Below are positions 21,351-24,457 of a stretch of 38,783 nt of DNA, piece by piece. Origin of the DNA: Petroclostridium xylanilyticum (GTDB lineage Bacteria > Bacillota > Clostridia > SK-Y3); the NCBI RefSeq assembly GCF_002252565.1, contig NZ_NPML01000014.1, positions 1 to 38,783 on the forward strand, in the 5' to 3' direction. Position 1 is the first letter of the stretch, and every line of letters starts with the position of its first letter. Both the position numbers and the translations under genes were made by a program. Under the pieces are notes generated by a model that did no database searches, had not been told where the DNA came from, and was given only the letters and a program-made list of their open reading frames with translations.

Positions 21351-22601
21351 ATGAAAGAAAAAAAAGATGTAGTTCAGCCGGATTTAATTGCAAAAGTGGT
21401 TATTGCCATAGCAATTGTGATCCCTGCTATTGTAGGAGGTATTTTTAAAAGCTGGAATGTTTTCATCGCAACTTTGATTTCAAACTTTATTATGTTTGCT
21501 ATTGTTCGTTCTACATTAAAACATCAAATGAACAAAATTATCAAAAAGTTTTCTCAGGATATCAGTGCAGTAAAACAGGGTGATTATTCCAAACTCATTA
21601 CTTCTAAAGATTATGAGATGATAGGAGAAGTTGCCCCGGTTGTCAATGCTGTACTCCATGATATTAGAGAACTCATTGAACGTTTTTTCTCATTGGTATC
21701 TTCAATTAACAATGCCTCATATCAGGTAAACACTACTGCAGAAAATGCAGTACATGCGATTGAGCAGATCAGCGTTACAATTGATGAAATCGCCAAAGGT
21801 GCTTCTGAACAGGCTGCTCAATCTCAACGGGGTGTTACTGTTGTAGATAAGCTCTCAGAGCAAATCAATCTGGTTTCAGAAAGCTATAAAAGTGTCATTT
21901 CAGAAACCAATGTAATCAAGGAACTAAATAATGCAGGCATTCAGGCAGTACAAGTATTAAGAGAAAAATCCGAGGAAAATAATAAGATTACCCAACAAAT
22001 TTTCGGTACTATTGAAAACCTTAATAACAAATCCAAAGATATAGGATTATTCGTTGAATCTATTGAAAACATCGCTGAACAAACTAATCTTCTTGCATTA
22101 AATGCTGCAATAGAAGCTGCAAGGGCCGGGGAAGCCGGAAGAGGTTTTGCAGTAGTTGCAGAAGAAGTAAGAAAGCTGGCAGATCAGAGCAGACAGTCTA
22201 CTGAAGAGATAAATAACCTGGTTGCTGCAATCCAGGAAGAAACTACTTTAGCCGTACAGTCTGTAGAAGCGATTAAAAAATCTTCTATTGAACAAAATGA
22301 AGCTGTAGGAAAAACAAATAATGCTTTTGACGATATAGCAGCCGGTATTTTGAAGATTGTTCAAAAAATTAATGATGTCAATACTGCAATGATTCAAATG
22401 GATTCAGCTAAAAATGATGTTATTGACGCAATTGAAAACATATCTTCAATTTCCCAGCAAACTGCCGCTTCCAGCGAACAGGTTGCTGCGACTACCGAAC
22501 AACAGATTCATATAATAGAAGATATGAAAGCTGCTGCCGATAATCTCTCTAAGCTGGTTAGTGAGTTAAGTTCCAATTTGAAAAAATATAAGATTCGCTG
22601 A
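21351..22601 (+). CDS. Methyl-accepting chemotaxis protein without an extracellular sensor
   Basis: Chemoreceptor (416 residues). Two close N-terminal transmembrane helices (about 17-33 and 39-54) are joined by only a few residues, so there is no periplasmic ligand domain. A short linker follows, then a long cytoplasmic helical hairpin whose tip is [39 protein letters not shown] split over residues ~240-280. The tip binds CheA and CheW; a cheW gene is at 33911-34366. Sensing must be from the cytoplasm, the membrane or partner receptors. The ATG at 21351 follows AAGGGGGAC. Monocistronic with a strong terminator overlapping its stop codon. Confidence 0.92.
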
Positions 22602-22651: not shown

Positions 22652-22897
22652 TGTTCACTCCCCACTATTTTCATATCAACTGCCACGCCGGGCGCACCCG
22701 GCACAAATAATGATGAAAATATGCTTGATTGCTCAGGGCTTCGACATGGGGACGGTTCCTCAGTCGCATGAAAAACGCATTCGACAGACGAACCGTCCCC
22801 AAGTCGCATCCCTTCTTCCTGCTAAAACGGACTTTTTCTGTGGTTTCGGTTTTACTCCCCACTCCCCACTGTTCATTCCCCACTATTTTCATATCAA
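22652..22897. repeat. Segment flanked by 28-bp direct repeats
   Basis: A 28-base unit at 22652-22679 (TGTTCACTCCCCAC then TATTTTCATATCAA) recurs at 22870-22897 with one change. Between them lie a small GC hairpin (GCCGGG-CGCA-CCCGGC at 22688-22703), a double REP-like palindrome and a heptamer array (22855-22889). Confidence 0.7.
22742..22806. repeat. REP-like palindrome, copy 3 (two inverted units)
   Basis: GGGGACGGTTC (22748-22758) pairs with GAACCGTCCCC (22790-22800), extended by CGAC (22742-22745) and GTCG (22803-22806). Each half resembles copy 1, with GTCGCAT or its complement inside. So the copy is two units head to head. Confidence 0.75.
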
Positions 22898-22920
22898 GGA
22901 TTACTGTTTGCAACCTCATA

Positions 22921-23056
22921 TATGCAGTTGTCGAAGAACTTTGCTACCACGATAGGTAGTTGTGTCGTTGACCTAATCTTGCATAGTTAGGAATATAGGT
23001 TGTATGCGACCATTCCTAAAACAGCGACTTGCATACAAAAAGCGTTAGGGCGACAC
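22921..23056 (-). ncRNA. Candidate structured RNA, family not recognised
   Basis: Nested pairing is visible. The closing stem is GTGTCG (22962-22967) with CGACAC (23051-23056), continued by CCTAA (22972-22976) with TTAGG (23045-23049). Inside is a hairpin TTAGGAAT / GGTTG / loop TATG / CGACC / ATTCCTAA (22987-23019). On the minus strand an extended -10 element TGCTATAAT (23061-23069) ends four bases before the closing stem, so a transcript would begin within about two bases of it. After the closing stem come a CTACC/GGTAG hairpin (22944-22959) and a weaker GTT/AAC one. The -35 is poor, no terminator is obvious, and I do not recognise a known riboswitch or 6S/4.5S consensus. An insertion-sequence end is an alternative. 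Confidence 0.45.
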
Positions 23057-23075
23057 TTATATTATAGCAAAATTC

Positions 23076-23154
23076 TAATATATTAGCCATATCAAAAGGC
23101 TAATATATTAAGCCCTTACATCCTCCGAGATAAACAACGGAGGTTTTACGGGCT
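23076..23154. other. Two further hairpins upstream of the RNA candidate
   Basis: TAATATATTAGCC (23076-23088) and GGCTAATATATTA (23098-23110) form a perfect 13-bp stem with a 9-base loop. Immediately after, AGCCC (23111) pairs with GGGCT (23150-23154) and CCTCCG (23122-23127) with CGGAGG (23138-23143). Neither has a T tail. Confidence 0.6.
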
Positions 23155-23232
23155 ACTTTATAAATTGAAACAGGTATATTCTCCTATCCCATTAACATAA
23201 GCAAAACATAATTATACACATCCATAAAAAAG

Positions 23233-23348
23233 TAATCCACAATATCCACAGAGTTATCCACAACATTCAAATCCCTATTTTCTTGGAAAATAATGCTTTT
23301 CCACAATATTCACATGACATATTTCAACAATTTTTTTACTGTGGACAA
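23233..23348. promoter_or_regulatory. Cluster of DnaA-box-like sites
   Basis: TAATCCACA (23233), ATATCCACA (23242), exact TTATCCACA (23254-23262), TTTTCCACA (23297-23305), and on the other strand TTGTCCACA (23340-23348). One exact and four single-mismatch copies of TTATCCACA in 116 AT-rich bases, three of them nearly contiguous. Confidence 0.55.
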
Positions 23349-23378
23349 CTTATTAAATTATAAACATAATGTCGAAAG

Positions 23379-23434: not shown

Positions 23435-24457
23435 TCAATATCCCAACCGCAGATTTGGCACCGCATTCAGATCCAGGTCTGCTCTTTTTCCTGCTATAAA
23501 TTCGTAGTATGCTGCGCAGGCAATCATAGCGGCATTGTCTGTACAAAGTATGGGTGAAGGGTAGTATACTTTCAGACCATTTTCTTTCGCCCTTTCTGCC
23601 AGTAACTGTCTAAGTGCACTGTTTGCAGCCACTCCGCCTGCCAGGGCAATAGTATTTATCCCCAGCTTTTGTGCTGCCACAACAGTTTTATCCACAAGTA
23701 CTTCAACAACTGCATTCTGAAAACTTGCCGCAATGTCTGCCCTATTATACGTTTCACCCTTCTGTTCCAATTTGTTAACATAATTTAGTACCGCCGTTTT
23801 AACTCCGCTAAAACTAAAATCCAAACTGCCATCATCAAAACTTACCTTTGGAAATTTTACCGCATCCTTGTTACCTTGCTTTGCAAGCTTATCAATTAAA
23901 GGGCCTCCCGGATAACCTAAACCTATTACCCTCGCAACCTTGTCAAATGCTTCTCCCGCAGCATCATCCCGGGTCTGTCCCAATATTTCAAAGGTATTGT
24001 AATCCTGTATATGAACAATATGGCTGTGCCCTCCTGAAGCAACCAGGCATATGTATGGAGGCTGCAGATCCTGATGTTCCAGATAATTTGCAGCAATATG
24101 CCCTTCAATATGGTGTACCCCAACCAATGGTTTGTCCAGCGCAAAAGCAAGCGCCTTGGCAGCAGATACCCCCACAAGTAAAGCCCCCACCAGGCCGGGA
24201 CCGTATGTAACACCAATGACATCTATATCCCGGAAAGTCACTCCCGCCTGCTCTAGAGAATCTTGAATGACTGCATTAATAATCTCAACATGCTTTCTTG
24301 AAGCAATTTCCGGTACAACACCCCCGTATCTCTTATGTAAATCTACCTGGGAAGAGATAACATTGGATAAAATTTTTCTACCATTTTCAACCACCGCCGC
24401 GGAAGTTTCATCACAGGAAGTTTCGATGCCCAGTATAAAGCATTTTTTTTTCATCAT
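23435..24457 (-). CDS. tsaD: tRNA N6-threonylcarbamoyltransferase TsaD
   Basis: Catalytic subunit for t6A37 formation on ANN-decoding tRNAs; transfers the threonylcarbamoyl group made by TsaC/YwlC. 340 residues, normal length. It has the ASKHA-fold opening [14 protein letters not shown], the iron-binding motif HIEGH at 116-120, ASGGHSH, and the C-terminal [13 protein letters not shown]. Two ATGs open the frame (24457, 24454) behind AAGGATGAT. It follows the Lon-like protease gene by 62 bases. YwlC is 3.6 kb upstream on the same strand; tsaB and tsaE are not in the window. Confidence 0.97.

Follow-up and report, generated by a model that had tools for sequence, protein, structure and literature searches.

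A truncated IS200/IS605-type element with a structured RNA, a candidate free-standing omegaRNA, in Petroclostridium xylanilyticum

A gene-free spacer of Petroclostridium xylanilyticum holds a piece of a mobile element that encodes no protein in its complete form. The piece lies at positions 22898–23159 (minus strand) of the window, by which we mean the whole 38,783-nucleotide stretch of contig NZ_NPML01000014.1 that was analyzed, and it is a truncated member of the non-autonomous IS200/IS605 elements (IS, insertion sequence), not a complete element. Judging from sequence, we consider it fairly probable that the only product of such elements is a structured RNA made from their own promoter, and that this RNA is of the free-standing omegaRNA type. 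The original prediction had proposed a new structured RNA at 22921..23069. Structure, a promoter-like start and homologues were all found, but its setting had been missed: it belongs to a mobile element without genes, of which truncation has left the 5' part. The unit is likewise real but larger than first drawn, extending from 23159 down to 22898 here and over 479 nt in its complete form.

Complete relatives and the parts of the window copy

Relatives were sought in 391 Clostridia genomes. This search returned an 86% identical relative of 213 nt in G099 (C37), a genome from a different family, and in G135 a short match; the G099 relative overturned the explanation of the locus as IS debris plus a chance fold. 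A pattern search with the module shared by these sequences then located it six times in G099 and once each in G135 and at a contig end of G005. G099 carries three complete, nearly identical copies of 479 nt and a fourth that runs into a contig end, at four different sites. Each copy lies 3' of TTTAT and comprises a left-end hairpin, a palindrome, a promoter and the RNA, and in the complete copies a right-end hairpin ends with GTAGTTCAC. There is no open reading frame (ORF), hence no transposase gene, in the complete 479-nt G099 element. Its RNA of 376 nt has a predicted folding energy of -101.4 kcal/mol (z -3.5, with 0/100 shuffles as good).

The module is also present in viral contigs (L207, L211, L212/L221, L230, L241 and L361) and at the further G099 loci L320 and L322. 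Plasmid pCY360 of Butyrivibrio proteoclasticus has such an element in 15 places (e.g. L371 18418–18651 and 20001–20245), and the 49 kb of it that were read for genes contain three tnpB genes and one tnpA gene beside the element. No TnpB was matched in the module-bearing viral loci. Phages and plasmids searched with the window DNA itself yielded nothing useful, whereas module-based queries succeeded. That the element is mobile is well supported. We also noted that the RNA-only element of G099 has a second subfamily, represented by L320 (19212–19500) and L322; partial matches to it, without an annotated gene, occur in plasmid records from Bacillus, Paenibacillus, Paraclostridium and others.

All parts of the window copy are on the minus strand. 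The copy runs from the insertion target through the left end, the promoter and the 5' domain into the core module, of which it has the first half, and it ends at 22898, where a dispersed repeat starts. The predicted extended -10 element TGCTATAAT is present at 23061–23069, and TATAATATAAGTG(T/C)C is kept in the G099 copies. The 5' structured domain that follows (22962–23056, 95 bases) is closed by a two-part stem, also as predicted, with an outer part GTGTCG/CGACAC (23056–23051 and 22967–22962) and an inner part CCTAA/TTAGG (23049–23045 and 22976–22972). Next come a hairpin, CTACC/GGTAG, at 22944–22959, which is compensated in relatives, and the 5' half of the core module, TTCGACAACTGCATATATGAGGTTG, at 22911–22935, the 3' pairing partner of which is lost. 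No intrinsic terminator was found after the window RNA before 22640. Having neither its 3' half nor a right end, the window copy is probably an inactive relic.

Covariation and promoters

Taken as a single sequence, the closing stem is not beyond chance. When the region is shuffled with its dinucleotides preserved, 46% of the shuffles contain a two-part stem of 6+5 bp; across the whole window such stems occur at 1.5 per 841 nt. The fold z-score is -0.97 over the originally predicted interval and -1.9 over the closed unit. Such z-scores (-1 to -1.9), and a stem so frequent in shuffles, are what a chance fold in a repeat-rich spacer would give. We regard this explanation as very improbable: for the family it is refuted by homologues, covariation and copy number, although the copy in the window may be inert. 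The RNA stands above chance because the closing stem is kept with paired changes in relatives, and because distant genomes have retained the unit in full. The stem reads GUGUCG/CGACAC in the window, GUGCCG/CGGCAU in G099 C37 and GUGUCA/UGGCAC in G099 C54, so that the compensatory changes which the original prediction had named as its own test were found, in few sequences. The pairs of the 5' domain are thus retained in C37 and C54; across the closing stem and the next hairpin, 98.6% of alignment cells are paired, versus 23–48% when the partners are slid, moderate evidence given the few sequences on which this covariation rests.

The core module, with the layout TTGANAACTGNATATA..GTTG[hairpin]GTAAAATATN'CAAGG, could be aligned in ten sequences. 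In this alignment 99.2% of cells are paired, 24 cells are double-changed, and 0/500 shuffles were as good, with slid controls at 19–68%; loops had been cut out and the arms positioned manually, which biases towards pairing, while the patterns used for searching put no constraint on the variable positions. Six members (G135, L207, L211, L230, L320 and L322), all without the extra 5' domain, have sigma-70-like promoters with a 17-nt spacer that end 15–18 nt before the module.

Element ends, movement and genomic setting

Two stems upstream of the RNA had been predicted, and both exist, at 23111–23154 and 23076–23110. They are the IS200/IS605-type left-end hairpin of the element and a palindrome. 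The left-end hairpin (23111–23154) reads AGCCC-GTAAAA-CCTCCG...CGGAGG-ATGTAA-GGGCT; its core, CCTCCGTTGTTTATCTCGGAGG, occurs five times in this genome, in the window and at four IS605-type left ends, with 22/22 positions identical. Thus a match to a known insertion sequence end, which had been put forward as grounds for rejecting the RNA, was found for the neighboring stem, yet the RNA itself is still real. The outer stem, AGYCC/GGRCT, is specific to the RNA-only element and common to the window and the G099 copies. The palindrome, TAATATATTAGCC/GGCTAATATATTA (23076–23110), lies between the left end and the promoter, and the G099 copies have one at the equal position. The target TTTAT (23160–23164) is directly 5' of the left end, as it is in the four G099 copies and in the resident IS605 copies alike.

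The four resident IS605-type copies carry a TnpB gene, which in L003 is interrupted by a stop. TnpA is present in one of them (L005); the other three (L003, L004 and L006) have, together with tnpB, a ribbon-helix-helix protein of 50 amino acids in the place of tnpA. In each of the two genomes examined, the left-end core of the RNA-only element equals that of the resident tnpA-bearing element, namely IS605 here and the copy in L332 in G099 (CCACTGTGCCTTGTGCCTGTGG). This match is the expected result of mobilization in trans, and movement by a resident IS200/IS605 TnpA is therefore supported by comparison of the ends. Moreover, the right-end core of G099 C37 is that of the IS605 of this genome. 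As a side observation, G099 L152 (1480–1530) has a lone intergenic hairpin whose left half is from the left end and whose right half is from the right end, like a minimal single-hairpin element.

Left and right hairpins, a TTTAT target and a resident TnpA would suffice for movement, and ends-only elements of this kind, PATE-like, are known (PMC7290912). If the present element were one of them, only its DNA hairpins would matter, for movement by TnpA, and the interior would be a passenger or structured single-stranded DNA rather than a functional RNA. We consider this unlikely. The covariation is internal and deep, far from the ends, with G-U pairs in the stems; independent members have a promoter ahead of the module at a constant distance; and the module is conserved across unrelated right ends.

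The gap without genes, predicted at 830 bases, measures 833 bases and separates a chemoreceptor gene (21351–22601, plus strand) from tsaD (23435–24457, minus strand). The same-family relatives G002, G004 and G005 also have tsaD, the DnaA-box cluster and the chemoreceptor gene in this order; there the spacers are far shorter, and the locus is empty in all three. Against these, the window locus has approximately 500 extra bases. These consist of the element piece (22898–23159) and a dispersed repeat of ~230 nt (22668–22897, minus strand), which has more than 40 copies in the genome and cuts the element off at 22898. The repeat holds a GGGGACGGTTC..GAACCGTCCCC hairpin. Directly downstream of tsaD lies a cluster of DnaA-box-like repeats (TTATCCACA; 23185–23370), kept in 5/5 family relatives and with short matches in other Clostridia, Sporomusa and Kroppenstedtia; in position it corresponds to the region that DnaA binds downstream of gcp in Bacillus subtilis (PMC4447404).

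Other explanations of the spacer were rejected. A decayed protein gene was not apparent, as the two spacer ORFs had no Pfam match. An rRNA leader had been suggested by a 47-nt match at the G005 contig end, but the rRNA leaders of this genome are unlike the window, and the matching G005 piece turned out to carry the core module. A likeness to a tRNA promoter in G024 was a chance similarity.

Relation to omegaRNAs and to known IS200/IS605-linked systems

Known omegaRNAs, or reRNAs, come from the 3' end of tnpB and the right end of the element, and carry a guide derived from the flank (PMC8612924, PMC10278001). In G099, the final third of the RNA aligns with two plasmid tnpB loci, across the 3' end of tnpB and the DNA after it (72% over 125 nt and 79% over 71 nt, with database E-values of 7e-5 and 3e-3). 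For the G135 member, the 3' part likewise gave a hit, to an annotated TnpB gene. The RNA-only element does not derive its RNA from a tnpB mRNA, since the tnpB gene is absent and a promoter-like site of its own is present. We infer from these matches that the RNA is a free-standing omegaRNA and a putative guide, one that probably relies on TnpB in trans. On this model, transcription would proceed through the right end into the flanking DNA, which would serve as the guide; TnpB supplied in trans would use the RNA to cut the re-joined empty site, and the element would then be copied back and kept. For the pCY360 element, the predicted RNA of ~230 nt would start ~8 nt before TTGAAAACTG and end past GTAGTTCAT.

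Several observations weigh against this assignment. A covariance model of the resident IS605 omegaRNA scored only 0.4 bits on the candidate (E 4.6) and was rejected as a match, and for this reason the case for kinship with omegaRNAs depends on the 3' part, which the window does not contain. The window copy also lacks the right-end hairpin, no lone right-end core occurs elsewhere in the window, and its extended -10 element has no good -35 (3/6). The right end of the pCY360 element resembles that of one pCY360 tnpB weakly (E 0.07), and no tnpB was found in the 1.54 Mb, or half, of G099 that was read. Lastly, part of the covariation could reflect hairpins in single-stranded DNA, the form in which IS200/IS605 elements move; here, the G-U pairs and the promoters argue for an RNA over a DNA structure.

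A further explanation is that the RNA acts alone rather than as a TnpB guide, for example by regulating the translation of TnpA, or as a ribozyme or an intron-like RNA, its omegaRNA-like 3' end being kept only for the right end. A conserved module unlike the resident omegaRNA, joined to differing 3' parts, would fit such a role. Nevertheless, we hold it to be quite unlikely, as Rfam, group I introns included, gave no match at the element in the complete copies or the module-bearing loci tested. The only Rfam match in the member loci was an unrelated RT-2 RNA elsewhere in L211. For the window RNA, too, nothing reached the Rfam cut-offs and nothing was convincing at E up to 10, in line with the original prediction, which had matched it to no known RNA.

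Returning to a free-standing guide, we tentatively propose a class of RNA-only mini-transposons, widespread in Bacillota and their phages, that may spread promoter-driven guide RNAs programming resident TnpB in trans, with the conserved 5' module as a new guide part. A published description may exist; our literature search covered open-access papers. What has been found is an RNA family backed by covariation and without an Rfam match, mobile and at high copy (15 places on one plasmid). The element would allow one to ask whether guide RNAs of transposons can persist and spread once separated from their nuclease gene, and whether resident TnpB maintains such parasites. Guides of this kind would be intermediate between TnpB transposons and trans guides of the CRISPR type.

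Among known systems, the TnpB omegaRNA/reRNA is resembled by the RNA of complete copies in the 3' part and the right-end hairpin, and the element RNA would likewise end at the right end and continue into a flank-derived guide; unlike it, the element has its own promoter, a conserved 5' module and no tnpB gene (PMC8612924, PMC10278001). PATEs and other non-autonomous IS200/IS605 elements have hairpin ends, no transposase and insertion 3' of a fixed short target in common with the present element, which differs in encoding a large covarying RNA with a promoter. In IStrons, which combine a group I intron with IS605/IS607, a structured RNA is also joined to an IS605 end, and ORF-less variants exist (PMC4227781); by contrast, the present element has no group I intron match and has its own promoter and an upstream IS605-type left end. 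The haloarchaeal sotRNAs (RF02656 and RF02657) are similarly linked to IS200/IS605, but they overlap tnpB, whereas the present RNA has no Rfam match.
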